This document shows, in pieces, positions 5,131 to 56,801 of a stretch of DNA of 64,000 bases (within the stretch, counting starts at the first letter, position 1; each line of letters opens with the position of its first letter). Made by a program: the position numbers and the translations under genes. The DNA comes from Mrakia gelida (taxonomy: Eukaryota; Basidiomycota; Tremellomycetes; Cystofilobasidiales; Mrakiaceae): the NCBI GenBank assembly GCA_024345305.1, contig BRON01000015.1, positions 930,001-994,000 of the forward strand, read 5' to 3'. Under the pieces are notes generated by a model. That model ran no database searches. It was not told the origin of the DNA and saw only the letters and a list, made by a program, of their open reading frames with translations.

Positions 5131-5996
5131 ATGTTCTTCAGACAATCCTTGCACTCCCCAATCAACGCTCTTGCCTCGACATCAAGGCTAGTGCGAGCCG
5201 TTCCTCCTCCTCCATCTGCGAGCTCAGCGCCCCTCCTTCGGTCCATCTCCGAGAGGGCCTCTCCTTCGTCCAACGAGGGAATAGCGTCTCCAGTACGTTT
5301 CACGAAGGGTTCAGAACCATGATTATCCGTCCGAAAGTATGGTTCTTTTCCAGAACAAGCTCAAGCTGACCTCTTCTCGTTCCCATCTCGGCCTTCTCCC
5401 AGACCCTTCCCACCTCGCCTCCTCTTCCTTCCAACCGTCCTCCTCTTCCTCCTCCAAAAGGCTCTCCAGGACTTGGAATCAACTTTTACTCCAAGTTCTC
5501 GGACATCCCCTCCTCTGAAGCTCTCGCTTCCATCCTCCAACTCGCTCGATCCATCACCCCCGCTGAGCTCGCTCCCCTCCCCCCTTCGACTCGAGAACGA
5601 CACATCAAGCTCCAGGCTATCCTCGCCCTTGCGTCCAACATGGACAACCTCACTCGGAAGCACTACTTCCAATCCTTGGATGCGGAGTTTGTCTCGCAGG
5701 AAGAGGTGGAGGCGAGGAGGAAGGAGGTGGCGAGGATGGAAGTGGCCGAGGGAGGGAAGTTCGACGAGTACGACGCGGGAACGATGAAGGAGTGGGAGGA
5801 GGCTGCTCTGGTCGGGAGAGTCAAGGTCTTGAAGGGTCTTGAAGGGGCAAAGAGGAGATCTACAGTGAAGTGGATCGACAAGAAGACGGAGAGTGACAGG
5901 AGGAAGACGATGGCGAGGAGGGACGTGAGGAGAGAGTTGAAGGAGCGGGAGGAAAAGGAGGAGAAGGGAGTAGGGTTGATGAACGATGATACGTAG
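5131..5996 (+). CDS. family F member F1, putative mitochondrial protein
   Basis: Two exons, 5131-5292 and 5403-5996 (251 residues), phase-0 intron with aagctgac branch point. Exon 1 encodes an Arg/Ser-rich, acid-poor N-terminus that ends in LLRSIS, typical of a mitochondrial presequence. Exon 2 has the family core: FYSKFSDIPSSEALASILQL, then ITPAELAPLP, then a helix ending LALASNMDNLTRKHYFQSLD. A highly charged helical tail follows, with ARRDVRRELKERE near the end. It aligns along its whole length with F2-F7 in this window, including the intron position. It is one of the more diverged copies, with F2 and F6. Function unknown; mitochondrial location is inferred from the presequence only. Confidence 0.75.
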
Positions 5997-6276
5997 ATAT
6001 ATCTCGATCATGTTAGTTCGATATCCTTAGGTCACCGAAATATCTGGATGAGAGGGAGCAGGACGAAACGCGTCGCGCGCCGAGCCGCGTCTTTCTTCTT
6101 TGCGTTGCCGAGCTCGAAGAAGGGAAGGGGTGGTCATAACAGAGGTCGTGAATCATGTATCTAGTTTTAGCAATTGTAGTATAAGATGAGAAGAGCAGAA
6201 AAACAACATAAGCACGTCAAATCTAGTCCCGTTCGTGTTTCGTCTGGTCGTCCGCCTCGTCTCAGTTCGTCCCTCC

Positions 6277-9200
6277 TCAGATGTCCGACATCCTCCCAGT
6301 ATCTCCACTCAAGTCCATGATCAATCGTCCCTCCGCCTTCCTGGTCATCAGTCGTTTCGTCTCCATCCAGATAAGCTCTCGTAACTTGTAGATCTCGGTA
6401 GATCGATCCCACCTCCATCCCATGAGGAGGTTTCGGAAGCAATTGACAGCCTCGAGAGAAACGTCTCCACCTTCGGCGAGAGGGATCTGGATGTGATCCG
6501 TCTTCTGGGCCACTGGGAAGCGCGAGGAATGAAGGAAAAGCGGAGTTAGCGGAGGCACGAGATCGGTCGTCTCAGCGAGACAAGAAAGGGAGACGAACTA
6601 TCGCTGCTGTCGGGGTCTTTGATCCCAGCAGCGGGCCAAGCAGCTCGGATACTGTGGGAAGAAATAAAGAGCGTGATCAGCACCGTTCGTCGAATCATCG
6701 AACGAGACGGGAACGAGACGAGAGAAGAACTCACGCGTGCCACCAACTGAAAGGTCGTCCGTCGGCGAGGCGTTTCCTATCTCCGCTGTAGAACAAGAAG
6801 GTCCTCATCGTCGAGGAAGCGAGATCGAAGCGATGAACGGCCCAGGTGTCGTCCTCGTTCTGCGGTCGAGGGAGAAGGGAGGTCAGTTCGAGGAACGAAA
6901 ACGGGGAGAGCAGAACGACACGACTCACTCGATGTCGACAGATCGCGAGGATGACTCGAGGGAAGCCAGTTGGGCATAGGGCTGGGAGACCGAAAGGAGT
7001 CCAGAGCTTCGAAGGAGAAACGAGCATGTCAGTGAAGACGATGGAAGGAAGGAAGAGAGCTCGACGCGACTGACCTCCTCGATTATCATTTTGGCGTCGT
7101 TAAACCGTTTCTGTTCGAAGAGAAGCGAAGCTCGAGTCAGTCATGGATTTCAGAGTAGAAAGGGCTGCAGAGAAGAGGACTAACGTGGTAGCAAGCCTGA
7201 TTCAAGCTGTCTCCAAGGTTCGGTGGAACGAAGAGCTTGTCGACGACCTCGCTCGGGTTCGAACAGAGTCGATGTCGAAGTTGACGCTTGTAGGTCGTTG
7301 TCGTCCAGATCGTCAGCGCGAAGGAGTTGACTGAGGTGTTGGAAGAGGCCGAAAGAGGGGAGGGAGCGTCAGCAAAGGATAGAAGAGACGAGAAGAGAGC
7401 TCGCTCGAGGAGAAGAGAGGGACGTCGAGCAGAGTGAACGACGAACCTTGTCGAGCGAGCGAAATCTCCTCCAAGGCTCTCGTGAAGTCCTCCATCGACC
7501 AGATGACGGCCCAGGCGTACTATATAATGGGAAAAGCACGGAAGGAGAAGAGTGGTCAGCTCGACGCGAAGAGACGAAGCCAGGCTCGACAGCGGACGCG
7601 TCGAAACGAAAACGAACGCGAGCGTGGACTCACCAATCTCTGAGTCACCAAATCCCATGGCCTCGGATCCATCAATCTCGGTAGAATAGGATTTTCTCCA
7701 AAGTCCTCCTTCTCTCGCGTCGCTTTCCCTCCTCTCCCGTTCACCAACGTCTGCCCTTCGACCTCGTCCTCCTGGACGGGAGGAGGTTTGAACGCAAACA
7801 CCCCCGCCTCCGAATCCGACTCAACCACCTCAGGAGGTATCTGAGGAAGCTCTCGATCGGCGAAATCCCTCGTGATGACCTCCTGAGCTTCCGGAAGGAC
7901 GGGTTGTTCGACGATGGGAGACGCGACCAACGCTGGAGTTCTGGATCGATTCGTCGAGGGAGCTTGAACGAGGATTTGAGGAGCCGTAGGGATGACGGGA
8001 GGAGGAGTAGGAGTGGAGGAGTTGATGGTTCCGGTTTGAGCTCGTTGGGAGGAGACGGGTCGGACGGAGGAGGGAGGATCGACGACGATGATTCCGGGAG
8101 GTCCGACGGGATGGAAGGTTGCTGGATCGACTTCGACGTACAGAGCTCTTGCTTCCGAGGCTGGGTCTCCAAAGGTGTGTCGAGTCGAAGAGGAGGGATC
8201 GTCGAGAGTGGTTGGGGTCTCGGTGAAGAGACCGAGGGAGGTTCCGAGGGGGTGTTGAGTTGTCCGTTGTCGAGATCGAGTCGGTGAGGCAGAGGTCGTA
8301 GGGATGTCTTGGGTCGGAGAAGTGGGCGAGAGAGGAACAATGTAGGCGTTGGGAGGTGGGTAAGATGAGTTGATGTTGGTTGGGGTGGAAGGGGAAGATG
8401 TCGAATGAGGCAGAGAGCGAAGGATGGTTTCGATTCGGCTGTTGTTCGCTTCGAGTTTGTTGAGAAGATCCACCGCCCAAGCAGGAGGAGCCTATCAAGA
8501 GAAAGAGAAGACGCCTCAGATCAGTACGAGTCTTTGAGCGAGGACCCAAAGGAAGAAAAACGTACCTCCTGAAGCTGCTGCCTCGTCTCGAATGCTCGAC
8601 CGTCGACCTCCTGCCTCAACACCTCCCTCGCAAGCTCTCCAACCCGTTTCTCCACAGCCGTCTTCAGCACCTTCTTGACCTCCTCTCCAAGCGAAGGGTT
8701 CGACGACGCCTCGAGTAGCTCGCAGAGAACCTTGTCGTGGAAGAGACTCGCTCGAGCGAAGGTGGATCGAGTCGCGTCGGCTGAGTGTCGATGAGTCGAA
8801 AGGGAGGGAGCGCGATTCGACTGAACGAGTTGTTGGGACTGGGGGTGCTGATGGGTCTGATGATGACTGGAAGCGAGGGGAGCGGGAGTAGGAGCTGTCG
8901 ACTGATGGTCGCGAGGAGGAGAGGGAAGAGCCGTACGGGTCGAGTCGTTATCTCGCTCAGGTCGGATTTCGATGGGAGGCGAAGGCACCGAAGGAGGTCG
9001 AGAGGGAAGATCTGGAGGAGGCTGATTTGCCTGGAAGAACAGAAGAGGAGAAGGAAGGAGTGTGAGCGAAGCTGAACGGACAACGAGAAACGAAAGAACC
9101 GCGAGCTCACCGTCTCCTCCCATCTCCTCCTCACCGTCGATCCAACCTCGGTTCCAGCTGCTGGAGGAGCTCGCTTGATGGGGAGAGTGAGTCGACGAGG

Positions 9201-10647: not shown

Positions 10648-11189
10648 GACCGGGTGAGGCGAGGAGGAAGGAAGGAAGGAAAGGAAGGGCGGAGCTGGTG
10701 AGCGGTTGAGGCGAGTTCTAACAAGAAGGGAGGGTCCGACCGAAGGCTCCTCCGTTTTCAAGGGGTTGAAAGGTGTCTGTATATGAGAGGGAGCAATCAA
10801 GCTTCATGACCCAGAAAGATCGCTGCAGAGAGGAAGGAGCTCGTTGCGCGTCAGCGAAGGAGAAGGCCGTCGAGAGCGAAAGAAGAGGGAAAGGTAAGGT
10901 GGGGCTGAGATTTGATGGTTTGAGCTTCGTTGCCAACGAAGTTTCATTCACCTCTCCCACGAACCTCCGAGGGTCTGTTCTGATACGGAGACCTCTACCG
11001 GAGACACCCCTTCCCCGTAGGAGGAGTGGGTGACTCACCCTGGAGAACGGAGAGACGGCTGGAGAGGCGAAGTGGGATCAAACGCGACGCGTCTCGAGGC
11101 GTCCTTTCCCCTTCTCTTCCTTTCCTCCAGGACGTTCGACAGCCTCAAATGCAGTTGAAAAGGATCTATACTGACAGTTTAAACCCTCT
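10648..11189. other. intergenic, promoter side of 6277-10647 gene
   Basis: About 540 bp between the start of one minus-strand gene and the stop of the next (F2). No exon supported. A GACGCGTC palindrome lies near 11087. Confidence 0.4.
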
Positions 11190-12035
11190 CTAAGGCTTCG
11201 AAGTCTCCTCCTCCACCTCTCCCTCTGCCTTTCCCTCCATCTTCTCCTCCTCCAACTCCCTCCTCACCTCCCTCCTCGCGATCGTCCTCCTCCTATACTT
11301 CCTGATGTCCCTATCCACCTCTACCTCCTTCGACCTCCTCTCCCTCCCCTCCAACCCCTTCAACGCAAACTCCTTCCTCTTGCTTCTCTCCTTCTCCCAC
11401 TCCTCCATCGAAACCGAGTCCTCCAAGTCGAACAACCCCTTCCTAACGTGCTCCCTCGCCGTCGCCATCCTGTCCTGGTCCACCACCGTCATCGGACGAT
11501 GTCGCTGATCCAGGCTCTTGAGATAAGCGTTCCGAGGTTCGTCGTCCAGCTTGACGGCTTTGGCGAGGTAGTGGACGACGAGATCTTCCTGTCGACGGTC
11601 GGCTGGAGAACGGAAGGTCGAGTCGGTGGTGAACGCTCGGGTTTCGAGGAGGACGGATTGGACGGATTCGAGGGTGTCGAGGGAGGAGAAGAAGTTGGGT
11701 TCAAAGGTGATTCGAGGGAGAGGAGGAGTTGAGGTGGTGGAGGAGGTGAGGGAGGAGGAGGGAGGGGAGGACTGGAAGAAGGAAGCCGAGACCGGGGGTC
11801 AGCGTTGAAGCGTTTGCGGGCCGGTAACCTCGAGTAGGGTACCTTGGGGTCGGATATATACACTCACGTGAGGATCGGTGAGACCGTGAGCATCCCGAAC
11901 GACGATGGAAGAAGCGAACGAGCGGGAAGGGAGTCGAAGGACCGTCCGAGGAGCTGTTGGTCGTCCTGCTGCTGCTGCTGCTGTCGAAGCGAGTCCCTTC
12001 AGAGTCCAGCGAGTTAACGATGACGAGAAGACCAT
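11190..12035 (-). CDS. family F member F2, putative mitochondrial protein
   Basis: Exons 12035-11868 and 11771-11190 (249 residues), phase-0 intron at the family position. Exon 1: MVFSSSLTRWTLKGLASTAA... up to LPSRSFASSI, a basic presequence. Exon 2: Ser/Pro/Thr linker, then ITFEPNFFSSLDTLESVQSV, DRRQEDLVVHYLAKAVKLDD, RNAYLKSLDQ, DLEDSVSMEEWEKE and a basic tail with IARREVRRELEEEK. This matches the F core segment by segment. The C-terminal part alone would look like a separate small ORF starting at MTVVDQD, but the frame is open across the junction, so it is a single exon. Sits head-to-head with F3, 541 bp apart. Function unknown. Confidence 0.75.
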
Positions 12036-12576
12036 AGGAGAGGACGTGGTGGTTGAGGGAGGAGGTGTATATACGGTGGGCGAGGGCTGAAGAAGAAGGA
12101 CGTAAGGAAGGAGGAAAAAGCGTGAGCTCGACTCCTTTCACGCTCTTCTCTTCCTCGTCTGCCGCTCTCCTTCCTCCTTGAAAGAGACGATACTTACCAG
12201 AGGGAGCTGTTAGAGACGAGGATGTGTGGATGGTTGTATGATTCAATTTCTAGAAGGAGGAGGTGTGGCCGTTCGAGGAAGGAAGGTCGAAAGTTGAGCT
12301 CGATGAAGGTCAGATTCGTCGAGCTCACGTCTTCTCCCTCCCGCCTTCCACTACTTTACCTTTCCTTCGACCTTTCGCCGAATCGGAACAAGTCCCCTAG
12401 ACCTAGCCTGCAACCCATTTATCCAGTGAGTAGATCTACGAGATCGATCGCCTCTCGAGTGGCAGAGGAGAGCTGGCCTTTGAGGTCGAGCTCACCTTCC
12501 TTCTCGTCCTCTCTTGGTCCCAGCCTCCCTCCCTCCAGCCCCCCTCGCGGCCTCTTTCCATCAATTCTACATCAAT
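12036..12576. promoter_or_regulatory. shared divergent promoter of F2 and F3
   Basis: 541 bp between two divergently oriented paralogs. No exon supported. A tatatac stretch near 12070 on the + strand and the pyrimidine-rich run before F3 are the only recognisable elements. Its being a shared promoter is inferred from gene orientation. Confidence 0.4.
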
Positions 12577-13436
12577 ATGGCCCTCTCCTCATCGACTCGC
12601 TGCTGTTTGAACGTCCTCGGATTCGCGTCTCGCTCAACGAGAGCCGTTCAACTCTCTCGACCTCAACGATTCAACCTCCCTTCCCACGTCGCCCCTCGTT
12701 CGATCTCCCACCAACCTCCTTCCTCTTCTTCCAGCGACGATCCTAAACCTCAGGTCAGCTCTCCCGAATGCACGGCGGCTACCGTCCGTGATTCCTCGCT
12801 GACCTTTGCTTCTCTTCTCGCTTCTTGACCTCCGAAGGCCTCGACTCCCCTCGTCCCCTCGCCTCCTCCCTCCTCAACACCGCCCTCTCCTCCCACCTCC
12901 AAACCTCTCTTGTATCCAGAGCCCGTCACCTTCAACTTCAAGTTCTCTTCCATCACCACTTCCGACACCCTTGCTAGGGTTCTCAAAGTTCGACGGTTGG
13001 TCACTCCTCCGAGCTCGCCCTCCTCCCCGAACTCGAGCAGCAGCAGCACAAGCTCGCTCTCCACATCCTCACCAAAGCCTCCAAGATGGATCCTGAGCAA
13101 CGAGCGGCTTACTTCAAACGAGTGGACAGTCACCGTCGACCCTTGGAGGTCCTCGAGCGCTCTCGAAGGGACAAGGCGAAGGGGGAGATCGAGCTTGGAC
13201 GGTGGGACGAGGAGGACGCGTTGTCGGCAGAGGAGTGGGAGGAGGTTCGCAGGGTCAAGCGCGAAGCGAAGTTGGAGGAAGGGATGGCGACTGAGGGTTG
13301 GGATAGGAAGGAGGCGATGAAGAAGATAGCCGTCCAGGACAAGCGGTACAAGCTGCACAGGAGGAGGAGGTTGGAGAGGTTCGAGGTGAGGAGGGAGATG
13401 AAGGAGGCTGAGGAGGCAGAGAAGGAATCGAAGTAG
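12577..13436 (+). pseudogene. family F member F3 with 1-nt frameshift
   Basis: Exon 1 12577-12753 encodes MALSSSTRCCLNVLGFASRS... to APRSIS, the family presequence; exon 2 is 12838-13436. After FKFSSITTSDTLARVLKVRR the reading frame breaks. At 13010-13016 the sequence reads cactcctcc, whereas F4 has cactccctcc; restoring the family frame needs one extra base. Downstream, the correct frame (SELALLPELEQQQ, MDPEQRAAYFKRVD, EEWEEVRRVKREAKLE, EVRREMKEAEE) stays open to the stop at 13434-13436 and is strongly conserved. Without correction, translation runs out of frame to about 13320. Either a very young pseudogene or a sequencing/assembly error in a short C run. Closest relative in the window: F4. 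Confidence 0.7.
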
Positions 13437-18020: not shown

Positions 18021-19769
18021 CTACTGCATGTGAGGAGGAAGATCCATTCGCGACGAGGAGGAAGGAGGGACGGTCGTCGCGAAGGTCGGAGATGAGATGG
18101 ATGGAGGAGGAGTCTTGTAGTTTGTGCTGATAGATCTGTCTTCGAGTCCTGCTCGCTCCTCGGGGGTGAGATTCCACTCGGAGGGGATGTCGCGTTCGGT
18201 GATGCTTGATCCGTCGGCTCGACGGTGTTGACGGCTCCAGAGGAGGAAGTAAGGGGAGAGGTCGAGAGGGATGTCGTCCATGGGGTCCTCGGGGTCCTGG
18301 AGGGGGTTGGAGAGCCGAGGGAGAAGGAGAGAGGGAGGGAGGGAGGAGAGGAAGGAGGCGAGAGGTCGAAGGGAAGGGAGGCGAGGGAGGGGACGAAGGG
18401 AAGAAAGAAGGGGAAGGGGGAGCAAGAAACGAGTCAGCCGGAGATTTCAAGCATCAAGGAACTTGGCACTCGTGGAAGAGAGTGCACGAGCAGTTCGACT
18501 CGTAGAAGGAAGGAGAGGGAAAGGAAAGACTCACGTTCGCCTCGTTCACCAACCTCCTCAGCGTGTCCTCGCACCACTTCTTGTTCTGCAGCTGGAACTG
18601 GAACAGCCCGCACTTGATGCTCACCCACCCATCGAGATCCTCCCCTTTCCTATCCGCCAGCGTCGTCACCCACCTCTGATCAAACTCCAGCGCGGTTCCA
18701 GCTCCGGTTCCGATACTGGGCGTCCATCCTCCGACTCGAGGGGCGGGAGCTCGGTAGAGGGCCTTGGTTCGCTTCGCTCGTTGGTGACCGTACACGTCGA
18801 CTTCGACGACGGGAGGAAGGAAGGTTGATGGGGACCCTTCGTTGACGACCGGGGAGGTGTGAGAGATGTAGGCCCAGTCTTCTCGAAGGCGTTTGTAGGG
18901 ATCGAACGCTTGAGGTCGGAAGGGGTGGTAGTATTCGGGAGAGGTGAGGAGGAGGAACTTGTGACGAGCGGCGGGAGTTTTGAAGGGGAGTCGAACGACG
19001 GGAGCGGAAAGGGTGACGACGGTGCTGTAGGTGGGTGGAAGACGAAGGGAAGGGAGGGACGAGAGGTCAGCTTCGTGAAAAGGAGGAAGGGAAGGGACGA
19101 AGGTGATGAGGTCGAACGAACCTCTCTCGAGAGTTTGAATCTTCTAACGGCCAGGTCTTCTGAGTATGGAAGCGAAGGTACTCTGTTGAGATGTCGGGGA
19201 CCTTGAAGGGTATAGCTGGGAGCGAGGAAGGGAGATGGGAAGGGCAGGAAGGAAGGGGAAGGAGGTCAGCGAAAAAGTCAGGTTCGTCTCGACCGACTTG
19301 ATCTCCTTCAGTCCCTCTTGAGATCACTAGAGACCCCTCGAAGAGTGGCCTTGAGCCTGTTGCTAGTGTATACGAGCACGAACACACCCAAAGTTCTACC
19401 AGAGGAAGGACCGATGAACTCACGTTTCAACTTTGGGAGCTCGAGCTCAACTGTCCTCATGAAAGCGAGAGCGTCCCTCTCCTTCTGGATCATCTCATGA
19501 CCCTGACCAGTAGTCTCGTCGTACTGGAAATCCTCGTACAGCCTCTCCCTCACAACCCTCACTCGATCCTTCTTGTGAATACCAGCTTTGGGAGCTTCCA
19601 GCTTCACAGCACCCCCCACCCCTGGAGCAGCGTCCGCGTAAGAACGATGGGAAGGTCGAAGGGAGAGGACCGAGGGACGAAGGAAGATCCGAGAGGAGGA
19701 GGAAGAGGAGGTGCAGGAGGAGGAGGAGGAAGCGAGAGCAGCTCGAGCTGAGGAAAGGAGGGGAGCCAT
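18021..19769 (-). CDS. RSM24: mitochondrial small ribosomal subunit protein mS35 (Rsm24)
   Basis: Four exons: 19769-19424, 19215-19122, 19024-18535, 18296-18021 (401 residues). N-terminus MAPLLSSARAALASSSSS... to SLRPSHRSYADAAPG is a mitochondrial presequence. The body has the Rsm24/MRPS35 pattern: VTLSAPVVRLPFKTPAARHK, then FLLLTSPEYYHPF, then later IKCGLFQFQLQNKKWCEDTL followed by RRLVNEAN, where the family has a final FP...N...L..L..EA segment. The central insert (GGWTPSIGTG...) and the C-terminal extension with disordered Ser/Pro-rich end are fungal-type additions. Acts in the mitoribosome small subunit. Confidence comes from the domain order rather than from a searched alignment. Confidence 0.75.
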
Positions 19770-20268: not shown

Positions 20269-21120
20269 CTACTTCGACCCCCTTTCTTCCTCCTCAGCGT
20301 CCTTCATCTCCCTCCTCACCACCAACCTCTCCTCCCTCTTCCTCCCTAGCGTTTCATCCTTAGCGATCAACTTCTTCATCGACCTCTCCCTATTCCAGCC
20401 CTTTGGCGCACCCTTGGTTTCAAACTTCGCCTCTCGTCTGACCCTGCGGTTCTCCTCCCACTCCTCCGTCGACAACGCGTCCCCCTCTTCAAACAGCCCA
20501 CTCTCGACCTGCTCCTTCGCCCTCTCCTTCCGAGATCGCTTCAGGACATCGGGGGATGGATGAAATTCGTCCACTTTTTTGAAGTACGCTTTTCGTTGCT
20601 CAGGATCCATCGTTGAGGCTTTGGTGAGGATGTTGAGAACGACCTGGCGCTGCTGCTGCTCGAGTTCGGGGAGGAGGGCGAGCTCGGAGGGAGTGACCAA
20701 CCGTCGAACTTTGAGAACCCTAGCAAGGGTGTCGGAAGTAGTGATCGAGGAGAACTTGAAGCCGAAGATGGGCTTCTTGAGGTGTGCGGTTGGTTGGGAG
20801 GTCATGAAAGAAGGTGGTTCTGAGGGAGGAGGCGATGGGACGACGGGACTCGAGGTCTTCAGAGGGAAAGAAAGAAACGAGAAGAGGAGCAGAGGTTAGC
20901 AAACAGGCACAGAGGATGGGGGTGGAACATGTTATGGAGAGGTACCCACTTCTGGCGTTGGATCATCGCTGGAGGAAGAAGGAGATTGCTGTGAGATCGA
21001 ACGAGCGACGAAGGAGGGAAGGGGGATTCGTTGAGGTCGAGGGAGTCGAGCTGCTCTCGTTGAGCGAGAAGTAGATCCAAGAGCGTTCAGACAGCAGCGG
21101 GCCGACAGAAGGAAGGACAT
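20269..21120 (-). CDS. family F member F4, putative mitochondrial protein
   Basis: Exons 21120-20950 and 20856-20269 (252 residues), phase-0 intron of 93 nt at the family position. Exon 1: MSFLLSARCCLNALGSTSRS..., ending VARSISQQ, a mitochondrial-type presequence, followed by an acidic Ser/Asp linker (SSSSDDPTPE). Exon 2: FKFSSITTSDTLARVLKVRR, SELALLPELEQQQRQVVLNI, MDPEQRKAYFKKVDEF, EGDALSTEEWEENRRVRREA, then LVVRREMKDAEEEE. Intact and nearly identical to F3 over the core, so it serves as the reference for the F3 frameshift. About 800 bp of its upstream DNA is shared with F5, and about 600 bp of that with F7. Function unknown. Confidence 0.8.
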
Positions 21121-21925
21121 ATCGACGTGGGGTTGATGAAGTGAGAGGAGGTTGAGGGAAGGGGGAGAGCTGAGACCAAAGAGAGGGAAGGAAGGAGAGG
21201 TGAGCTCGACCGTTTGTGACCTTCCTTCTCGCCTCTTCCTCGCCCGCCCGCATCCTCGTTCTAGATATCGAAGACTCACGGGATCTATGTGCTACTCTGA
21301 GAGAAGCGGCGGGTCGAGGTTGCTGACTTGCGGTTTGTCGAAAAGAGCTGGGCGGACACTGATCGTTTCGGGGGAAAGGAAGGGAGGGAGGAGGAAAGTT
21401 GAGCTCGTTCGAGTTCGCAAAGGCAGCCGTTCGCTCTGCCCTCGCCACAAAGTTTGGCAGCAAGATCTTCAGCAGAACCATCTCGAACGGATTTTGATCT
21501 GACGAAGCCGTGGATCGAACGAAGGATCGAAACTTGAAGAACTGGCCGTCGTTCGAAAACTGAGACTGAGTCGAGGCTCCCTCACCCTCCTGCTCCTCGC
21601 GTCTTTCCAGCTGACGGCTTCTGAGTTTGTCTTTCATGTACAGGCCGCTCTGCTAGAAACACGTCTTACTCCGCTCAAAATCCGCGCGAGCAACATCCAG
21701 CTCAGGGCGTCACGAAAAACTCAAGTCGTCTACGTAAAACCATGGTCTCGCTCGCTCGCTCGCGTCGTTCCTCATTCCCCGTTATTTCGATGTGGATGAC
21801 GCATAGGAGGATGTGCAGTGAAAGGCATAGAAGAGAAGAGGGGGAAGTCGGTCTCGGTCAGGAGAACGAAAAGAAAGGAAAGGAGACGACGCGTCGCAAC
21901 GAAGCGCATCGACGTCTTCTCCCTC
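21121..21925 (-). repeat. F4 5' flank: duplicated block shared with F5 and F7
   Basis: Read on the minus strand, the DNA upstream of F4 matches that upstream of F5 (48396-49170) and F7 (55348-55934). Shared landmarks are acgtagacgacttgag, gctggaaagacgcgaggagc, ctcgactcag, gagcgaacggctgcctttgc and gagctcaactt. Indels are not multiples of three and stops fall in all frames, so it reads as promoter/5' leader rather than coding exon. The part at 21825-21912 (gaagagggggaagtcggtct...cgacgcgtcgcaa) is shared with F5 only. Confidence 0.7.
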
Positions 21926-22148
21926 CTCCTCGTTCTCCATCCACTCAACGAGATAGAGCTTCTTCCAGAAACGAGCTTATGGATTAGTGCGAGCTCTTCC
22001 AGCTTCGTAAGTGAAGTTTGACTCTGAAGACCGAAGCGCAGAGGGAAGAAGAGTGAAACTCGACGACGACGCGTCGCTGGAGGGCTAGACTCTACACAAA
22101 GAGCTCTTTTCCGTGGACTTAAGTCCCAAGGAGATCCACATAGATCTA

Positions 22149-32904: not shown

Positions 32905-34178
32905 CTACTTCTTCACCTCCCCTTCCTCCACCAACCCAAACACCCCACTCCCCTTCGGCGGCTCAATCGCCCCCTTACTAAACCCAACAATCCTCCCCAT
33001 CCCCACCCCCCCCGTCGATCCCATCGCACTCAACCGACTCTGCAGCGGCATCCCTCCCCCCGGTCCTCCCATCCTCCTAGCCTGCCTTTCAGCACTCCAA
33101 GGAACCGTCCCAACCGCAAACGGATCCTTGTTCTGCCACCGATGCATCAACCCCATCGCCATACTCCTCCTGATCCCTTTCCCAAGCTGCTTCATCGTAG
33201 CTCGAGTCAACCCCGTTTCAGCTCTTCCTTTGATTCGACCGATGTCGGAAACGAAGGAGGAGAGCAAGCGAGAGTTCTTGTACTCGAAGACGGGGTTGAT
33301 CCGGAGTCGGTGGAAGGGGTCGATGAGGATGGCTTCGGAGTTTTTGGGTCCTAAGATGGCTTTGGGGGGACGGTAGTTGGGTTCCAGGAGGTTTTTGGAG
33401 CGGGAGAGTTGGGCGGGGGCGAGGATCTGGGTGGGGAGGGGGGGGGGGGGGGGGGCAGGGGAAGGGTAGGAAGGGAGGGAGGAGGGAGGGTTAGCTTGGG
33501 AGGTGAGGAGAGAAAGGAGCGTCGTTTTTGAGGCTGAGCTCGGAGGAAAGGCGAGGCGAAAAAGAGTGGAAGCATGGTGAAGATACATAGAGCTCCTGCG
33601 AGTGATCTTGTGAAGATCACCACATTTCGGAAGCTCTGAGGTCGAAGCAGAAAAGGGGGAAGGACGTCGCTCTCTCCCCTTCGCTCCTCTCCTTCCCTTC
33701 CTTCCTCCCTTCGAGACTTTGTCCCTCCCAAGGCCGGTCGATATCGAACGAAGCGAGATCCAACTCACATCTCCCTTGTTCAACAACCTCTTCTCCTGCT
33801 CGGGAGTCTTCTCAACACCAGGCTTCCCTCCTGAGAAACAGCAGCGCAAAAGAAAGAACGAAGGAAGGGAAGGAAAGAAGGTCAGCTTTCGATCTCTCTC
33901 TTGTCTCTTCTCTCTTCGCTCGTCCAAAGCGCATACACCCCACTCTCTACTCCAGACCCTAATCAAGCGATGAAAGAGAGCATTCACTCACGTCGTTCGT
34001 TTACTCTTGGAGGAGCGAAGGGGGAGTGGATCGTGACGGGTCGGTAGTAGGCTCGAACGAGGGAGGGACCGGAGAGAGACGAGGAGGAGGAGGAAGAGTG
34101 AGAGGAGGAGGGAGAGACTGCTGAGGAGAGGAGAGGGCGAGAAGCCGCTTTGGAGGTGGTGGTGAAGAGGAGGGACAT
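32905..34178 (-). CDS. RSM18: mitochondrial small ribosomal subunit protein bS18m
   Basis: Three exons: 34178-33992, 33830-33769, 33426-32905 (256 residues). The N-terminus MSLLFTTTSKAASRPLLSSA... is Ser-rich, basic and acid-free, a presequence. The S18 domain sits in exon 3: ILIDPFHRLRINPVFEYKNS, LLSSFVSDIGRIKGR, TGLTRATMKQLGKGIRRSMA, GLMHRW. This keeps the bacterial S18 order: Y-N..LL..F.s..G.I..R..TG, then Q..l..aIkrar. The C-terminus is extended with Gly/Met-rich and basic sequence, as in fungal homologs. Acts in the mitoribosome small subunit. The second intron (342 nt) is long for this window and contains a G18 tract. Confidence 0.85.
33438..33455 (+). repeat. G18 homopolymer in intron
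   Basis: Eighteen G on the + strand within the second intron of the bS18m gene, close to its 3' splice site, so the acceptor is preceded by poly-C in the transcript. Confidence 0.85.
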
Positions 34179-47541: not shown

Positions 47542-48395
47542 CTAATTGAACCCTTTTCCTCCTCGCTGAGCCTCCTTCAATTCCCTCCTCACTTCCAACC
47601 TCTCCAACCTCAGCCTCCTCCACCTCTTCTCTTGAGCGTCCGCCTCCTTCACCAACTTCTCCCTGCTCCATCCCGTAGTGCTTGCCCTCTTATCCAAGTT
47701 CGCCTCTCGTTTGGCCTTCATCTGGGCCTCCCAGTATTCTGCCGACAACGCATCCGACTCATCCCACGAACCACTCTCGACCTGCTCCTTCGCCTTTTCC
47801 CTCCGAGACTGCTCCAAGTCCCCGGAGGCTTGGTGACCAAGATCTACGTCTTTGAAGTACGCTGCTCGATGATTTGGATGCATCTTGGAGGCTTTGGCGA
47901 GGACGTTGAGCGCGACGGTGCGTTGTCGCTGTTCGAGGTTTGGGAGGAGGGCGAGTTCGGAAGGAGGGATGGATCGTGCGGTTTTAAGGACGGCAGCGAG
48001 CGCCTCCGGAGTGGTGATGGAAGAGAACTTGAAGTCGAGGGTGAGCCTTTGCCAGGCTGATAGCGGTGTGGAGGTGGGAGGAGAGGGTGATGTTGAGGAG
48101 GGAGGGGGAGGGAGAGAACGATTCGAGGTCCGAGTCTTGGGTAGAAAGAAACGAGCAGAGGTCAGCAAACAGGCCTGGACTAATGGGGAGCATGTACGCA
48201 TACATCTCAGGAGCCCACCTTAGGTTTTGAACCATCGCTGGAGGGAGACGAGGGTTGCTGGGAGATGGAACGAGCGAGGAGGGAAGGGAGGATGAATCGT
48301 TGAGCCTGAGGTCGAAGCAGTTGAGCTGCTCTCGTTGAGCGAGACGTCGATCCTAGGGAATTTAGACAGCAGCGAGCCGACTGAAGGACGGACAT
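47542..48395 (-). CDS. family F member F5, putative mitochondrial protein
   Basis: Exons 48395-48219 and 48135-47542 (256 residues), phase-0 intron at the family position. Exon 1: MSVLQSARCCLNSLGSTSRS..., LLRPQAQRFILPSLLARSIS, a presequence almost identical to that of F7. Exon 2: LTLDFKFSSITTPEALAAVL, IPPSELALLPNLEQRQRTVA, KASKMHPNHRAAYFKDVDLG, DESDALSAEYWEAQMKAKRE and a basic tail with LEVRRELKEAQR. Shares the ITTPEAL core variant and LRPQAQRFIL with F7, so the two are closest relatives here. Tandem with F6, same strand. Function unknown. Confidence 0.8.
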
Positions 48396-49170
48396 GTTGA
48401 CGTGGGGTGGATGAAAGGACAGGAAGATAATGGAAGGGGGGGAGTGCTGGGACAGAAGAGAGGGAAGGAAGGAAAGGTGAGCTCGACGATTTTGACCCTG
48501 CCCTCTCCGCTTCTGCCTCGCTTCTCACCTCGTTCAAGATGCCGAAGACTTGCGAGATCTATATGGTACTGGGAGAGAGAGGTTGATTGAAGTTGCTAGC
48601 TTGAGGGTGATGTCGGAAAAGAGTTGGGGGGGCACTGGTCGTTTGATGGAAGGGAGAGAGGGAAGGGGGGCGACAGTTGAGCTCGCTCGAATCGCAAAGG
48701 CAGCCGTTCGCTCTTTTTCTCGCCAGCGATTCTGGCAGCAAAAATCTCAGCAGGACCATTCGAGCTGGTATGTATCTGACTCAGTCTTGGATCGAAGAAA
48801 AAATCGAAACCTGCAGAATTGCCCGTCGCTCCAAAACTGGGCTGAGTCGAGTCTCCCTCGCCGTCCAGCTCCTCGCGTCTTCCAGCTAACGGGTCTCGTT
48901 TCAAACTCGCTCTCTCCGCGAACACCACCAGCCCCACTCGATTTCTCCCAACCTTCAGCCTCTCCAATGTTATCGAGCTGAAAGCGTCGCGAAGGACTCG
49001 AGTCGTCGACCCAACTGACCATCGCCTCGCTCGCTCGAGCCGGCCCGTTTCGTCCACATGTGGAAGACACAGAAGAGTCACTACGGCCAGAGTCAAAGAA
49101 GAGAAGAGGGGGAAGTTGGTCTCGGTCAGAAGAACGAAAAGAAAGGAACGGAGACGACGCGTCGCAATGA
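48396..49170 (-). repeat. F5 5' flank: duplicated block shared with F4 and F7
   Basis: On the minus strand this carries the same landmarks as the F7 flank: gaaacgagacccgttagctgg, ctcagcccagttttggagcg, caattctgcag, gactgagtcagata, ggtcctgctgagat, gagcgaacggctgcctttgc, gagctcaact. Relative to F7 it has about 28 extra nt after the gacgcga element. The distal 80-90 bp (near 49090-49165) match the F4 flank. No conserved reading frame. Confidence 0.7.
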
Positions 49171-49439
49171 AGGGGACCAACTCAACGTCCTCTCCCTCAG
49201 CATCGTTCCCCTTTACCTCAAAGAGCAGGGTCTTCCATCAGCGAGTATAATCGCATCTCCACCACCTGTGTCATTGGCCTCTCCACGCGAATGCCAAAAC
49301 GCAAAGGACGAGGAGAGAAACGAGACCCGACGCGTCGGTGTCTTTCCCTCGCAGCAACCGCTCCATGATCTTGCCCACGACGCAACCGCACTCTTGTTGG
49401 TCAGGTATCTCATCTCAAACCCTGACAAGACTCACTACC

Positions 49440-50271
49440 CTACTTTGTCTCCTCTCTCACCTCCCTCCTCAACACCGTCGCCTTCCTCATGGCCGCCTGA
49501 CTAGCCTCGATCTTCCTCCTCACCTTCTCCCTCATCTTCGCCCCCTTTTCCTTATCCTCCTCCGTCTTCTCCTCTATCTCTCCCTGAACCTTATAACTCT
49601 CCATCTTCTCCTCTATCCTCTTCCTAGACCTCTCGTCCCACTCCTCCATCGTCAACTTGTCGTCCTCCGCTCCCACCCCCTTCTCAACCTGCCTCCTCGC
49701 CTTCTCCCTCTGCCTGAGGTCGATGTCCGCCCGAGGGGTGTAGGCCATATCCAAGCCTTGGAAGTACTTGGTTCGATCTTCGAGGGAAGGGAGGTGGAGG
49801 CCCCTGTTGAGGTGACGGAGGAGGAGACGGTGTTGAGCTTGTTCGGGTTCGGAGAGGAAGGAAATAGGGACGTCTTCGGCTGCTTCAAGAGCTGCTTGGA
49901 GGACGGGAGTAGGGGAGAGGGGGGCGAAGAAGTTGGGAGCGAAGGTGTAGATTTGCTCTGGTTTGGGGGTGGGGGTTTCGGTTGAGGAGGAGGGGAGGTT
50001 CTTAGAGAGAGCGAGAGGTGAGGGAGGGAGGCAGTCAGCTTTCTGTACGAGGGTTGATGACCGGTGAAGGATGAAGAGTTTGAACCATGCAGCTCACTTT
50101 TGGGAAGCCATCATCGTTGACGTCGAACAAGCCAAAGGGGGTTCGGGAGATGGAGCGACGACCGAGAGAGAGGGAAGACGAAGAAGGGAGTCGAAGGTGA
50201 GGTTGCGTTTGACGAGTTATCGTTGAAGGAAGAGCTTGGAGAGCCCATCGAGTTGAAGAGGAGAAGGACAT
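49440..50271 (-). CDS. family F member F6, putative mitochondrial protein
   Basis: Exons 50271-50098 and 50000-49440 (244 residues), phase-0 intron at the family position. Exon 1: MSFSSSTRWALQALPSTITR..., SLGRRSISRTPFGLFDVNDD, a presequence with the RRSIS signature. Exon 2: YTFAPNFFAPLSPTPVLQAA, then helices ending LNRGLHLPSLEDRTKYFQGL, REKARRQVEKG, KLTMEEWDERSRKR and a charged tail with ATVLRREVREETK. A diverged copy, closest in style to F2 (both have F-x-P-N-F-F at the core start). Upstream, it is divergent from UBA1. Function unknown. Confidence 0.72.
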
Positions 50272-50622
50272 GGAGATGAGGAGGATGTCGAGGTGGTGGT
50301 TGGAGTGGAAACGAAGGTGATGGGAAGGAGCTGAAGAAGAAAGAAAGGCAGGGAAGGGGAAGGGAAAAAGAGGTGAGCTCGAGCAGAAGAGAAGAGGGCC
50401 TGGACGACCGAAGACCAGCAGCCCAGGACTAAATTTGAGCGTACGAGTCTGCTGGTCTGATACCGAAGGTATACAGGCTTTTGGTTTGAAAGAGAGATGC
50501 GAAAGATGAAGAAGACGGTCGAGAGGGAAGCGAACCTGGACCCTCCTCTCCACGTTGTCAGCTCTCGAAAGGAATCGCCACAAACCATCACTCCTCTCCC
50601 CCTCCCACTCCACCCAATCAAT
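50272..50622. promoter_or_regulatory. divergent promoter F6 / UBA1
   Basis: 351 bp between divergent start codons. No exon supported. Confidence 0.45.
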
Positions 50623-53600
50623 ATGTCCAATATGGAGGTAGACGAAGCCGCCATCGAGTGAGTACATATGTTTCTGTCGCTTCAGAATCTCTACCGGAGC
50701 TGACTCTCTTCTTCGCTTTCTCTCTCCTTTCCCAGTGAGGGTCTTTACTCTCGTCAGCTGTGTGTTTCCTCTCTTCTTGTTTCTGTAGCTCCTGAACACG
50801 TTGCTGACTGTCGGCTTGCTCTTTACGCAGATACGTTCTCGGTCACGAAGGTACGCTCTCTTGTAGCAGGAGATTGAGAGGAGAAGCACCCCTCACAAGC
50901 TGACCGAGATCCCCACTTCCTCCTTCTCCCTCTCCCTTCCAGCCATGAAGAAGATGGCTCTCTCCAACGTTCTCATCATCGGAGCTCAGGGTCTTGGCGT
51001 CGAGATTGGTGAGCTCCAGAGATCGGTCTACCCTTCTTCGAGACGAGATCGAGCTGACCACCTCCCACCCATCTCTCTCCTCCATCCATCCACTCCTTCC
51101 CTCTCTCCCTCTCCACCTCTCCCCTTCTCTCCCACCTCAAACAGCCAAGAACATCGCTCTCGCCGGAGTCAAATCCGTCACTCTCTTTGATCCCAACCCC
51201 GTAGCCATCGCGGATCTCGGTACTCAGTTCTTCCTTCGAAAGGAGGACGTCGGATCCCCTCGAGCAGCCGTCACCGTCCCTCGGCTGGCAGAGCTCAACT
51301 CCTACGTCCCCGTGCACGACCTCGGAGGAGCTGTTGGGGACGTTCTTTCCGAGGAGGTCTTGGGACAGTACCAGGTTGGTACACAGCTCGACGCAACACT
51401 TCCGTCCATCTTCTCTTGAGCTCAAGCTGACTCGGTCTCGATCCTCCCTCCCTCCCCATCCGTCAGGTCATCGTTCTCACCACTCCTGCAGCTCAGGAGG
51501 AGGCTCTTCGAATCGACGCTTTCACTCACTCCAACAAGATCGCTTTCATCTGGGCTGAGACCAACGGGCTCTTCGGGTCAGTCGAGCTCAGCTCTTGGAA
51601 GGAGACGAGGGAGATCTCGCTCGAGCTCACCCTCCTTCCTTCTCTTTTTCCCCTTCCCTCAGTTCCGTCTTCAACGACTTTGGACCCGCTTTCAACTGTG
51701 TCGATGCTACTGGAGAGGCCGTTCTGTCTGGCATGGTTGTCGAGATCGAGAATGTACGTAGATCTCGAACGACTCGAGCTTCCTCCTTCGTCGAAGCTCA
51801 CCCTCGCGCTTCCTTCTTTGCCTTTCATTAGGACGCCGAAGCCATGGTCACCTGCATGGACGAGACTCGACACGGTCTCGAGGATGGAGACTTCGTTACC
51901 TTCGAGGAGGTCGCCGGAATGACTGAGCTGAACGGAGGCGAGCCTAGGAAGATCACCGTCAAGGGTGAGTCTCGTCTCGACCTCAGCCTGAGTCGACGCG
52001 AACACAAGCTGACCTCCTCGCTCTTTCTCGCTCACAGGTCCCTACACGTTCACCATCGGAGACACCACTGGTCTTTCCAAGTACACTGCCGGAGGAGTCT
52101 TCACCCAGGTCAAGATGCCCAAGATCATCACTTTCGTTCGTCCAACCTTTTCGTTTCGCTTCCTCGACCTCAACCCTCAGCTCACCTCCTTCGTCTTCGT
52201 TTTCCTCTAGAAACCTCTCTCCGAATCCCTCACCTCCCCCGAGTTCTTCATCTCCGATTACGCCAAATGGGATCGACCTCAAACCCTTCACTTCGGATAC
52301 CAAGCCCTCTCCGTCTTCAAGTCCCAACACTCTCGTCTCCCAGCTCCTCGAAACCCAGCCGACGCTGCCGAGGTCGTTCAGATCGCTACCTCCCTCTACG
52401 GTGCCGACAAGGAGGAGAAGCTGGACGAGAAGGTCCTCACCGAGCTCGCCTACCAAGCGTCAGGAAACGTCGCTCCCATCAACGCCGTCCTCGGAGGGTT
52501 CGTCGCTCAAGAGGTTCTCAAAGCTTGCTCGGCCAAGTTCCACCCCATGGTCCAGCACCTCTACTTCGACTCTCTGGAATCCCTCCCTTCGACTCTCCCC
52601 ACCGAGGCCGAGTGCCAACCTCTCGGTTCGAGGTACGATTCGCAGATCGCGGTCGTCGGGCTTCCCTTCCACACCAAGATCGCCAACCACAGACAGTTCC
52701 TCGTCGGATCGGGAGCCATCGGTTGCGAGATGTTGAAGAACTGGGCGATGATGGGACTGGCTAGTGGAGAGAAGGGGAAGATCCACGTGACGGACATGGA
52801 TACGATCGAGAAGAGCAACTTGAACAGACAGTTCTTGTTCAGGCCGAGGGATCTTGGGAAGAACAAGGCTGAGGCGGCGGCTAGGGCTGCGGCGGAGATG
52901 AACCCTGATCTGGTTGGGAAGGTGGACTCGCATCAGGATCGAGTCGGACCCGAGACGGAGAGTGAGTCGCTCGTTTCGCATCATCCTCGTCGCGTCGCGT
53001 GTTGTTTCGTCATTCCAGTCAAGCTTACACCCTTTCCTTCCATTTTCATTCGCTGCAGACGTCTACGGAGATGGATTCTTCGCTGAGCTCGATGGAGTCA
53101 CCAACGCTCTCGACAACGTCGTCGCTCGTTCGTCTTCCCTCTCTACCTCTTTTTCGACGGGTCGCCTCGTCTCGGCTGAGCTGACCATCGTCCACCTCCC
53201 CTTTGTCTCGCTTCCCTTCTCCACAGGTCAGTACATGGATCGACGATGCGTCTTCTACCGAAAGCCTCTCCTCGAATCTGGAACTCTCGGAACCAAGGCC
53301 AACGTTCAGGTCGTCATCCCTCACCTCACCGAGTCCTACTCCTCTAGTCAGGATCCTCCCGAGAAGAGCATCCCCATGTGCACGCTCAAGAGTTTCCCCA
53401 ACGCTATCGAGCACACCATCGAGGTTCGCTCTTTCTCTCCAACTCCTCTTCTCCTTGCCGCCTCGCTTCGACTGACGCGTCCCTCTCTCGCTCATTCTTC
53501 TCGTTTCCAGTGGTCTCGAGAGCGTTTCAACCAGCTCTTCGTCGATCCTCCCACCAACGTCAACCTCTACCTCACCCAACCCAACTTCGTCGAGACCACC

Positions 53601-55323
53601 CTCAAGCACGGAGGACAGCAACACGAGCAGATCAACCATCTCCACGAATACCTCGTCGCCGAGAAGCCTTTGACTTTCGAGGAGTGTGTGAAGTGGGCTA
53701 GGTTCAAGTTCGAGCACGATTACGGAAACGAGATCAAGCAGCTTCTTCACAGCATGCCCAAGGACGCTGTGAGTATCTCTTTCTTTCGTCTTCGAGGTCT
53801 AGACCCCCAGCTGACTTTCGACCTTCTCCTTTTCTTCGCGCAGGTCACCTCGACTGGAACTCTCTTCTGGAGTGGACCCAAGCGAGCTCCCGATGCTTTG
53901 GTTTTTAACCCTGAGGACGTCAGTAGCCATTGCCCATCGTTTCGATCTGCTCTTGTCTCCCGAGCGGCGCTGACTTCGACGCGTTTTCCTTTCGACAGCC
54001 CATCCACCTCGAGTACATCATCTCTGGCGCCAACCTCCACGCCTTCAACTACGGACTCAAGGGAGAGACCGATCCTGCGATCTTCAAGAAGATCCTCTCC
54101 ACCATCACGGTTCCCGAGTTCAAGCCCAAGCAGGGCGTCAAGGTCCAGGTTCTCGACAGCGAGCCTGTTGCGAACGACGACGAGGGTTCGTTCTTCCCTC
54201 GTCCATGTCTTCCGCCCCATCTTCGCTGACCTTCTCGTCTCCCTTCGCTTCTCCAGAGTCCAAGGACGTCGGGGACATCGTCGCCAGCCTTCCTACTCCC
54301 TCCTCCCTCGCTGGCTACCGACTCAACCCCGTCGACTTCGAGAAGGACGACGACTCCAACTTCCACATCGACTTCATCACCGCTGCTTCCAACCTTCGAG
54401 CTCTCAACTATGGGATCGCTCCCGCTGATCGACACAAGACCAAGTTGATCGCTGGAAAGATCATCCCTGCCATCGCTACCACGACCGCTCTCGCGACTGG
54501 TCTCGTTTGCTTGGAGCTTTACAAGGTCGGTTCTTCTTCCCTTCCTCCTTCTCTCCTTGTCTCTTCGACTCGCGGAAATTCTCGAGACTGATCGCCTCGC
54601 TCCTTCGAACAGATCATCGACGGAAAGAACAAGCTCGAGGACTACCAGAACGGTTTCGTCAACCTCGCTCTTCCCTTCTTCGGTTTCTCGGATCCCATCG
54701 CTGCTAAGAAGGAGAAGGTTCGTCCTTCCTTCCCTTTCTCCCTTTCTCGCTCGTCTCTCGTTTCATTCGAGATCCTGACCTCTCTGTTCGACGTTCGCTT
54801 CCATCAGTACGGCGAAGTCGAATGGACGCTCTGGGATCACTTCGACATCCCCGGAAACCCCACGCTCAAGGAGTTCGTAGACTGGTTCCAGAACGAGCAC
54901 AAACTCGAGGTTCAGATGGTCTCCCAGGGAGTTTCGATGCTTTGGAGCTCGTTCACTGCTCCCAAGAAGGTTCGTCCCTTGCTCTCTTTTGTCTCCTTCG
55001 ACGTCTTCGAGACGACGAGACTGACTCTGCTTTTGATCTCCTTTTCGGTCGTCTCACGAACAGAGCGCCGAGCGACTCACGATGAGGATGTCGGAGCTGG
55101 TGGAGAGTGTTTCGAGGAAGGCCATCCCTCCTTGGGAGAAGACCTTGCTCGTTGAGGTGATGGTGAACGACGAGGAGGGAGAGGACGTCGAGGTTCGTCC
55201 ACTGTTCTTTCGACGCGTCGTTTCCTTCCCTTTTTCTTCGTGTACGCGACTGACACTGACTTCACGTTATTCCTTTTGTGACCTTTCTTTGCACAGGTCC
55301 CCTTCTGTGTCATCCACATCTAA
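50623..55323 (+). CDS. UBA1: ubiquitin-activating enzyme E1
   Basis: Twenty exons, first ones tiny: 50623-50657, 50736-50759, 50831-50850, 50943-51008, 51145-51374, 51467-51576, 51663-51753, 51832-51964, 52038-52135, 52211-52961, 53059-53127, 53227-53423, 53511-53768, 53844-53918, 53999-54185, 54257-54525, 54613-54717, 54808-54969, 55064-55192, 55297-55323 (1011 residues). ATP-dependent activation of ubiquitin, head of the conjugation cascade. Seen: start [20 protein letters not shown], inactive adenylation half [20 protein letters not shown], active adenylation half [20 protein letters not shown] with [17 protein letters not shown], catalytic Cys594 in [19 protein letters not shown], and a C-terminal ubiquitin-fold domain ending EVPFCVIHI. 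Length matches yeast Uba1. Confidence 0.97.
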
Positions 55324-55347
55324 ATAACGAGGGACGAGACGACGCCC

Positions 55348-55934
55348 GGTTTTACGTAGACGACTCGAGTTCTTCATGACGATTTCAGCCCGATGGTCTT
55401 GCACAGGCTGACGAATTGGAGAACAGTGTAGTGTGAGGTCAGTGGCGTGTATGGAAAGAGCGTGCTCGAAACGAGACCCGTTAGCTGGAAAGACGCGACT
55501 CAGCCCAGTTTTGGAGCGACGGGGAATTCTGCAGTTTGCAATTCACTGAGTCAGATAAACACCGGCTCGACCGGTCCTGCTCAAGACTTTGCAGCCATAA
55601 TTGCTGGGGAGAAAAAGAGCGAGCGGCTGCCTTTGCGAACGAGCTCAACTTTCGCTCCCCTTCCCTCCCTTCCCCCAAACAACTAGTGCGCCCGCAACTC
55701 TTTTTCGACACGCCCCAAGACCGCACTTCTTTCTCTCTCTATAGCTTCTCGGAATACTGTAGAGCTCTCGTAAGTCTTCGATGTCTCGATCGGGAGGAGG
55801 AACGAGGCAAAGCAGGAAGAGGAAGGTCCCAAAGTCGCCGAGCTCACCTCTCCTTCTCCTTCCTCTCTTCTTCCTCCCAGCTCCTCTTCCACCCTCTCTT
55901 TCCCTCGTTCTCTCACCATCAACCTCTCGTCAAC
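55348..55934 (+). repeat. F7 5' flank: duplicated block shared with F4 and F5
   Basis: Begins about 25 bp after the UBA1 stop with acgtagacgactcgagtt and runs to the F7 ATG. Landmarks match the F4 and F5 flanks: gaaacgagacccgttagctgg, ctcagcccagttttggagcg, aattctgcagttt, actgagtcagataaacac, gagcgagcggctgcctttgc, gagctcaacttt. So the duplicated unit carried promoter plus gene and landed directly behind UBA1. Confidence 0.7.
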
Positions 55935-56801
55935 ATGTCCTTCCTTCAGTCGGCTCGCTGCTGTCTGAACGCCCTTGGGTCAAGGTCTCGCTCAACGAGA
56001 GCAGGTCAACTGCTTCGACCTCAGGCTCAACGATTCATCCTCCTTTCCCTCCTCGCTCGTTCCATCTCCCAGCGACCTCCATCCTCCCCCAGCGATGCTC
56101 CAAAGTCAGAAGTATGTCATTGTGCTTTGTATGCATACACGCGCCTCATACTTCAGGCCTGTTTGCTGACCTCAGCCTCTATCTGCGTCTCTTTCTCTCC
56201 AAAGAGCTCGAACCCCGTCGTCCCCTCGTCTCCTCCCTACTCAACACCACCCCCACCCTCTCCTTCCACCTCCAAACCCGAGCGGATCACCTTCGACTTC
56301 AAGTTCTCCTCCATCACCACCCCCGAGGCGCTTTCCACCCTCCTCGAACTCGCCCGATCCGCTCCTCCTTCCGAAGTCACCCTCCGTCCAAACGACGAAC
56401 AGCGACAACGCACCGTCGCGCTCAACGTCCTCACCAAAGCCTCCAAGATGGATCCAGAAAAGCGAGCAGCCTACTTCAAGGGCGTCGACGTTGGTCATCC
56501 CCCCATTGAGGGGTTGGAGCAGTCTCGGAGGGAGACCGCGAAGAAGCAGATCGAGAGTGGGCTGTTTGATCGGGAGGACGCGTTGTCGATGGAGGTATGG
56601 GAGGAAGAACTGAGGGTGAGGCGAGAGGCAAAAGTGGAGAAGTTGATGGGGACTACGGGATGTAGTAAAGAGAAGGCGATGGGCGTGTTGATGGGCAAGG
56701 AGAGAAGGGGGCCGAGGAGGCAGAGGGAGGAGAGGTCTGAGATGAGGAGGGAGATGAAGGAGGCTGAGGAGGCAGGGACGAAGGGTTCGGATGTGGAGTA
56801 G
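55935..56801 (+). CDS. family F member F7, putative mitochondrial protein
   Basis: Exons 55935-56111 and 56205-56801 (257 residues). Exon 1: MSFLQSARCCLNALGSRSRS..., LLRPQAQRFILLSLLARSIS. Exon 2: ITFDFKFSSITTPEALSTLL, APPSEVTLRPNDEQRQRTVA, KASKMDPEKRAAYFKGVDVG, REDALSMEVWEEELRVRREA, then RSEMRREMKEAEEAG. The 93-nt intron (gtatgt ... gctgacctc ... aaag) is a multiple of three without a stop, so retention would insert 31 residues. Closest to F5. Function unknown. Confidence 0.8.
   Translation: MSFLQSARCCLNALGSRSRSTRAGQLLRPQAQRFILLSLLARSISQRPPSSPSDAPKSEVCHCALYAYTRLILQACLLTSASICVSFSPKSSNPVVPSSPPYSTPPPPSPSTSKPERITFDFKFSSITTPEALSTLLELARSAPPSEVTLRPNDEQRQRTVALNVLTKASKMDPEKRAAYFKGVDVGHPPIEGLEQSRRETAKKQIESGLFDREDALSMEVWEEELRVRREAKVEKLMGTTGCSKEKAMGVLMGKERRGPRRQREERSEMRREMKEAEEAGTKGSDVE

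Follow-up and report, generated by a model that had tools for sequence, protein, structure and literature searches.

The 64 kb of DNA from the Antarctic yeast Mrakia gelida analyzed here (the window; C15:930001-994000 on contig BRON01000015.1, GC 55.9%) carries seven members of a gene family, F1 to F7, each located where a preliminary description had placed it. Six of the seven were recovered as open genes by a splice-model search, which reproduced the architecture previously ascribed to them: an exon 1 of 54-59 codons, a phase-0 intron bearing a CTGAC/CTAAC branch-like site, and an exon 2. F1 (5131..5996, plus strand) consists of a 54-codon exon 1 at 5131-5292, a 110-nucleotide intron and exon 2 at 5403-5996, together encoding 251 residues. 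F2 (11190..12035, minus strand) has a 56-codon exon 1 at 11868-12035, a 96-nucleotide intron and exon 2 at 11190-11771 (249 residues); F4 (20269..21120, minus) a 57-codon exon 1 at 20950-21120, a 93-nucleotide intron and exon 2 at 20269-20856 (252 residues). F5 (47542..48395, minus) pairs a 59-codon exon 1 at 48219-48395 with exon 2 at 47542-48135 across an 83-nucleotide intron (256 residues), and F6 (49440..50271, minus), which groups with the copy M902 outside the window, pairs a 58-codon exon 1 at 50098-50271 with exon 2 at 49440-50000 across 97 nucleotides (244 residues). In F7 (55935..56801, plus), a 59-codon exon 1 at 55935-56111 and exon 2 at 56205-56801 flank a 93-nucleotide intron (257 residues). 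The remaining member, F3 (12577..13436, plus), is broken by a frame change within exon 2, as had been noted, and has a putative conversion tract in common with F4. The motifs quoted earlier for the family hold less well. The first exons are indeed presequence-like, but the RSIS site near which they were said to end is not exact in F2, which has RSFASS instead, and the quoted core consensus is fitted only loosely by F1, F2 and F6.

The family is real, is not an artifact, and is larger than first noted. A profile was built from the second exons of F1, F2 and F4-F7, which match it by construction, and was run on 5,320 stop-to-stop frames from C15:770001-994000, C15:1044001-1051000 and C6:769001-775000. 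The rest of C15 was covered by whole-genome protein searches with F4 (E ≤ 0.01) and M902 (E ≤ 5) in an assembly of 34,857,517 bases in 25 contigs, very probably that of M. gelida MGH-2, which is published with 25 scaffolds and 34.9 Mb at 55.7% GC from 230x PacBio and 176x Illumina coverage (PMC9872599; see also PMC12749792). Counts from these searches are lower bounds. Sequences outside the seed set matched the profile strongly: M919 (E 1.6e-75), M849 (E 1.8e-59), a piece of F3 (E 2e-47), M1049 (E 2.9e-45), M1047 (E 1.2e-40), M902 (E 8e-32) and a piece of M783 (E 2.1e-27). The seven members over 52 kb originally described thus belong to a set of 14 known copies, ten open and four broken, within 266 kb of C15. 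Nine of these are on the minus strand and the other five on the plus, at spacings ranging from adjacent to 64 kb. Seven copies lie outside the window, at 783, 784, 848, 902, 919, 1047 and 1048 kb; M849, M902, M919 and M1049 gave open spliced models, while M1047 and the neighbors M783 and M784 (C15:783.2-784.5 kb) are broken. The latter two have the same orientation and appear fused (C15:783180-784500, locus L010), the 3′ copy being 82% identical to M849 in DNA. Family matches in the genome were confined to C15, bar one weak match on contig C6 with F4 as query. The coding DNA of the close copies differs by 19-31%, so the copies are not assembly duplicates, a possibility that the preliminary description had left to be checked.

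The match on C6 led to a relative of the family's helical core. About 65 residues of this core match the N-terminal domain of two proteins of pentatricopeptide repeat (PPR) type encoded at C6:771958-772905 and C6:852153-853124, and of P0003 (BDY24DRAFT_371900) of Mrakia frigida. In an hhalign comparison the core and the PPR-type N-terminus align over 65 columns at 35% identity (probability 95.7, E 1e-8). The family profile scores 42.0 bits against C6:772, 36.0 against C6:852 and 34.1 against P0003, compared to a best score of 9.8 among 6,000 shuffles, and genome-wide searches connect the family and the C6 protein in both directions (E 1.4e-4 with F4 as query, E 2.1e-4 in reverse). The core is common to C6:852 and C6:772, themselves only ~30% identical. 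Judged from these alignments, the C15 core and the N-terminus of the PPR-type proteins in Mrakia are homologous, descending from a common ancestral domain, one named by no library used here. P0003 matches designed PPR structures (E 4.4e-14), though neither it nor the C6 protein reaches the cut-off of the Pfam PPR model. The matched segment falls outside the PPR motifs of these proteins, and PPR proteins in general are not defined by such an N-terminal core. The likeness extends to gene structure, as the C6:772 gene, in a model made by eye, has a presequence-like first exon and a phase-0 intron ahead of the core. In contrast, no tandem PPR motif was detected in the 11 C15 members scanned by Pfam (at E up to 10 in one scan and up to 1 in the other), their C-terminus is different and charged, and their length is 231-279 residues versus 516 in P0003 and 440 in the C6:772 model.

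The PPR-type family is itself expanded on a single contig. It occupies 22 places in the 20-853 kb stretch of C6, a count reached from 24 matches by merging two pairs, with one further weak place at 27% identity in a second genome search. Sixteen of the 22, the query itself counted, reach 67% identity or more with the query copy, and three show an internal stop or a split match. A genome search with PF13041 returned six matches on other contigs (one over cut-off) and none on C6, and this model is therefore no measure of the C6 family. The core was present in two of 11 C6 loci read (L026-L036) and not recognizable in the other nine. A crude filter, run without a control, found a presequence-like basic first exon in seven of ten further C6 loci.

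The first exons of the C15 family look like mitochondrial presequences. All ten open copies, as well as the M. frigida relative P0001 introduced below, have four to seven Arg or Lys and at most one Asp or Glu among their first 40 residues, and eight of the ten have no acidic residue there at all, the other two having one. Such an N-terminal composition is that of a matrix presequence. In F2, F6, M902 and P0001 an R-10-type motif overlaps the RSIS-like site, and in F5, F7, M919 and M849 it is located elsewhere; a motif scan found none in the first exons of F1, F4 and M1049. The mature parts are highly charged.

The preliminary description knew no family with this pattern, and in terms of named families this stands. 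Pfam returned nothing above cut-off for the 11 of 14 copies scanned (F3 as a piece, M1049 as exon 2 only; M783, M784 and M1047 lay outside the scan), and sequence searches of the PDB gave no family match below E 0.1. An AlphaFold2 model of F4 exon 2, made on six window sequences, is all-helical, with a mean predicted local distance difference test score (pLDDT) of 81.7 and a predicted template modeling score (pTM) of 0.58. Neither Foldseek, which gave nothing below E 1, nor VIA-align found a convincing fold for it, a missing match that does not equal a new fold; the model of P0003 is too poor to use, and its long-short-long-long order of core helices, although in line with the F4 model, carries no weight at such confidence. 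The family is nevertheless not without relatives, for besides the core that it has in common with the PPR-type N-terminus, one member has an ortholog. The family profile matched two entries of the protein database at E ≤ 1, in a search that looks for exact matches to short words, no more than 100 per query, and does not by itself establish absence outside Mrakia. P0001 (BDY24DRAFT_115570, E 1.7e-53) is a hypothetical protein of M. frigida, 58% identical to F2 (E 1.8e-79), and the tree joins the two as sisters (support 100/99); on this phylogenetic evidence it is the F2 ortholog. P0002 (E 1.5e-22) is a 106-residue fragment closest to F6 (57%). P0001 was the only family member recovered from M. 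frigida in the word-limited search, and the same search detected no ortholog of the close group (F4, F5, F7, M919, M849 and the broken copies). The family is apparently lineage-restricted. Since F2 and P0001 are orthologs, the F2 line, at least, is older than the split between M. gelida and M. frigida. The proposed recent origin of the expansion therefore suits the family only in part: besides the age of F2, F6 has its own relative, P0002, and pairwise dS in the close group is 0.34-0.65.

The copies change fast yet are under weak purifying selection. Pairwise dN/dS over the whole gene is 0.48-0.77 among the five open copies of the close group. A codon model gives an omega of 0.61 with a log-likelihood of -3112.96 versus -3124.56 at omega 1; neutrality, 11.6 log units worse, is rejected, and an omega of 0.3 fits 25.7 units worse than 0.61. 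By region, omega is 0.49 in the core, 0.40 in the middle and 0.48 in the C-terminal part, and 1.12 in the linker, a value from only 27 codons. Against the 19-31% divergence of coding DNA, introns (18-50%) and 3′ flanks (26-61%) mostly diverge further. The copies have also exchanged sequence, it seems. In a permutation test on the seven close copies (21 pairs, 2,000 permutations; M783 and M784 left out), three of the 21 pairs were significant after correction: F3-F4 (0.010), whose longest identical polymorphic run of 53 compares to a permutation maximum of 27, F5-F7 (0.021; 22 versus a maximum of 22) and F7-M1047 (0.031; 23 versus 23). We read these shared tracts as gene conversion.

In self-comparison the family unit is the main duplicated element, accompanied by a few other short repeats. 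In M919, F4, F5 and F7 the unit includes ~0.8 kb of upstream DNA and stops at a boundary common to all four, and there the flanks diverge by 22-37%, a nearly coding-like conservation in which the M849 flank does not take part. Within the window these flanks are 21121..21967 (minus strand) for F4, 48396..49235 (minus) for F5 and 55133..55934 (plus) for F7. Used as a query, the F4 flank hit six places in the genome, each adjoining a family copy on C15. A short repeat adjoins M919, M849 and F5, and the genome search found it at no other place. Since the places of the F4 flank and of the short repeat are confined to C15, the spread has been local rather than genome-wide. A larger unit may also have been copied: the divergent pair F2/F3, with a gap of 541 bases, resembles the divergent pair M1047/M1049, with a gap of 570, and the F2/F3 intergenic region (12036..12576) is mostly alignable with that of M1047/M1049 at C15:1047.7-1048.2 kb (L025 3659-4228). 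Over 1,369 columns, the F3 gene included, the two regions are 72% identical, as if the pair had been duplicated jointly. Another repeat, of 190 bp, adjoins M902 and M783 and has a third place at C15:907.6 kb (L022 7589-7777) with no recognized copy beside it, possibly the remnant of a lost one. That the upstream flank might be coding DNA was considered and set aside by eye, the gaps among the four copies not being multiples of three. An MCB-like upstream palindrome, CGACGCGTCG, was likewise rejected, with 35 occurrences in 224 kb.

The sequences show the family itself, its architecture and location, the number of its copies, the homology of its core, the constraint on it and the conversion tracts, whereas import, partner and molecular role are inferred. 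The account that we prefer, with confidence just short of even, is that these nuclear genes of the Mrakia lineage, amplified by local dispersed duplication, encode mitochondrial proteins with an accessory part in organelle gene expression. Exon 1 would supply the presequence, and the proteins are probably imported into mitochondria. Exon 2 encodes a Pro/Ser linker, the helical core of ~65 residues and a C-terminal helix that is long and charged. The core may be a domain by which these proteins dock onto the machinery of mitochondrial gene expression. Without PPR motifs of their own, the family members would partner mitochondrial RNAs, the mitoribosome or the PPR proteins in an accessory or regulatory capacity, and would make their contacts through the charged helix. 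Duplication units of ~1-1.8 kb, composed of the gene and up to ~0.8 kb upstream, would have dispersed locally, and the copies, partly homogenized by gene conversion, would be diverging fast while some decay into pseudogenes.

Several other accounts would fit parts of these data. A dispensable mitochondrial protein gene might have been duplicated locally by chance, with most copies now decaying in nearly neutral redundancy. Four broken copies of 14 and an omega as high as 0.61 would be expected, but an omega below 1 is strongly supported, ten copies retain open frames and splice sites, and introns and 3′ flanks mostly diverge beyond the coding DNA, with the nearly coding-like upstream flanks of M919, F4, F5 and F7 as the exception; this is unlikely, if somewhat less so than what follows. 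Equally, the proteins could be mitochondrial factors with a non-RNA role, for instance in respiratory-complex assembly, having merely an old helical domain in common with PPR-type proteins. The all-helical model and the position of the matched segment outside the PPR motifs agree with this, while the sole known relatives of the domain are PPR-type proteins, and we regard it as rather unlikely. It is quite improbable that the Arg/Ser-rich exon has some other purpose, as in nuclear or spore-killer-like proteins: the mature parts are highly charged, but the N-termini are basic and mostly devoid of acidic residues, P0001 included, and the domain recurs in PPR-type genes, whose first exon is mostly presequence-like. 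Least probable of all is a mobile element that carries the gene and causes its dispersal. It would explain the common upstream boundary in four copies and the short repeats beside copies; elements normally spread genome-wide, however, and the flanking sequences are confined to the C15 region (three, three and six places in whole-genome searches, none of them aimed at transposases or termini).

A restorer-like arms race, in which both the C15 and C6 families would be encoded in the nucleus to suppress mitochondrial transcripts that are selfish or harmful, expanded and diversified like the restorer-of-fertility-like (RFL) PPR clusters of plants, is about as unlikely as the non-RNA role. Rice RFL genes are mostly clustered at two or three loci with recombination (PMC5075784; see also PMC5138203 on plant RFL genes). 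The Mrakia families resemble them in local clustering (14 copies in 266 kb), in recombination between copies (three of 21 pairs) and in encoding organelle-type proteins: two mitochondrial-type families with a common domain, each expanded on one contig and, in the C15 case, combining fast evolution, a linker omega above 1, conversion and pseudogenes. The published M. gelida PAMC 26583 mitogenome is reported to contain two extra open reading frames (PMC12749792). On the other hand, plant RFL genes encode PPR proteins, whereas the 11 C15 members scanned have no PPR motif; diversifying selection at individual sites is not demonstrated, and omega in core, middle and C-terminal part is 0.40-0.49. 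No mitochondrial target is known either, and a COX1 search of this assembly did not find a mitochondrial contig. Literature searches brought up no report of a fungal or Mrakia PPR or restorer-like expansion and no paper combining "Mrakia" and "pentatricopeptide", and a word search of the main text of PMC12749792 finds the latter term zero times. Of the cox genes, the same text mentions just cox1 and "cox6", and it names four nad genes, so that gene content or annotation of this mitogenome appears unusual. A bolder proposal, slightly more doubtful again, is a fungal counterpart of plant restorers: two mitochondrial-type families would share a new docking domain and have expanded in parallel, that on C6 (22 places) with PPR motifs and that on C15 (14 copies) without them. 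Together they would keep fast-changing mitochondrial transcripts under control, the PPR-less proteins perhaps supplying a partner subunit. Plant cytoplasmic male sterility offers the best-known cases of locally expanded, recombining families of organelle proteins. A basidiomycete yeast with a large PPR-type expansion and a PPR-less family sharing its N-terminal domain constitutes a tractable system, in which to ask whether mito-nuclear conflict or cold adaptation lies behind such fungal expansions, and offers a newly defined protein domain whose role is testable.

Five of ten neighboring frames matched Pfam families, all unrelated to this one: an esterase-type hydrolase, a ubiquitin-activating enzyme, ORC4 (below cut-off), ribosomal protein S18 and an MRP-S28-type mitoribosomal protein. 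Two mitoribosomal-type genes occur among the copies, the MRP-S28-type gene (window 18457-19143, minus strand) adjoining F4 and the S18 gene lying at 32908-33987 (minus). Linked tRNA genes were considered as drivers of the duplications and dismissed, with just two tRNA-Ala genes in 231 kb scanned, near M919 and F1. These tRNA-Ala(AGC) genes, at window 4638-4710 near F1 and at L024 881-955 near M919, have ~360 bp in common around them. Linkage to mating type was also rejected: homeobox matches lie on C11 and C14, and STE3 matches on C16. The two STE3 pheromone-receptor matches (C16:465013-466017 and C16:503471-504508) are 38 kb apart, and one carries an internal stop.
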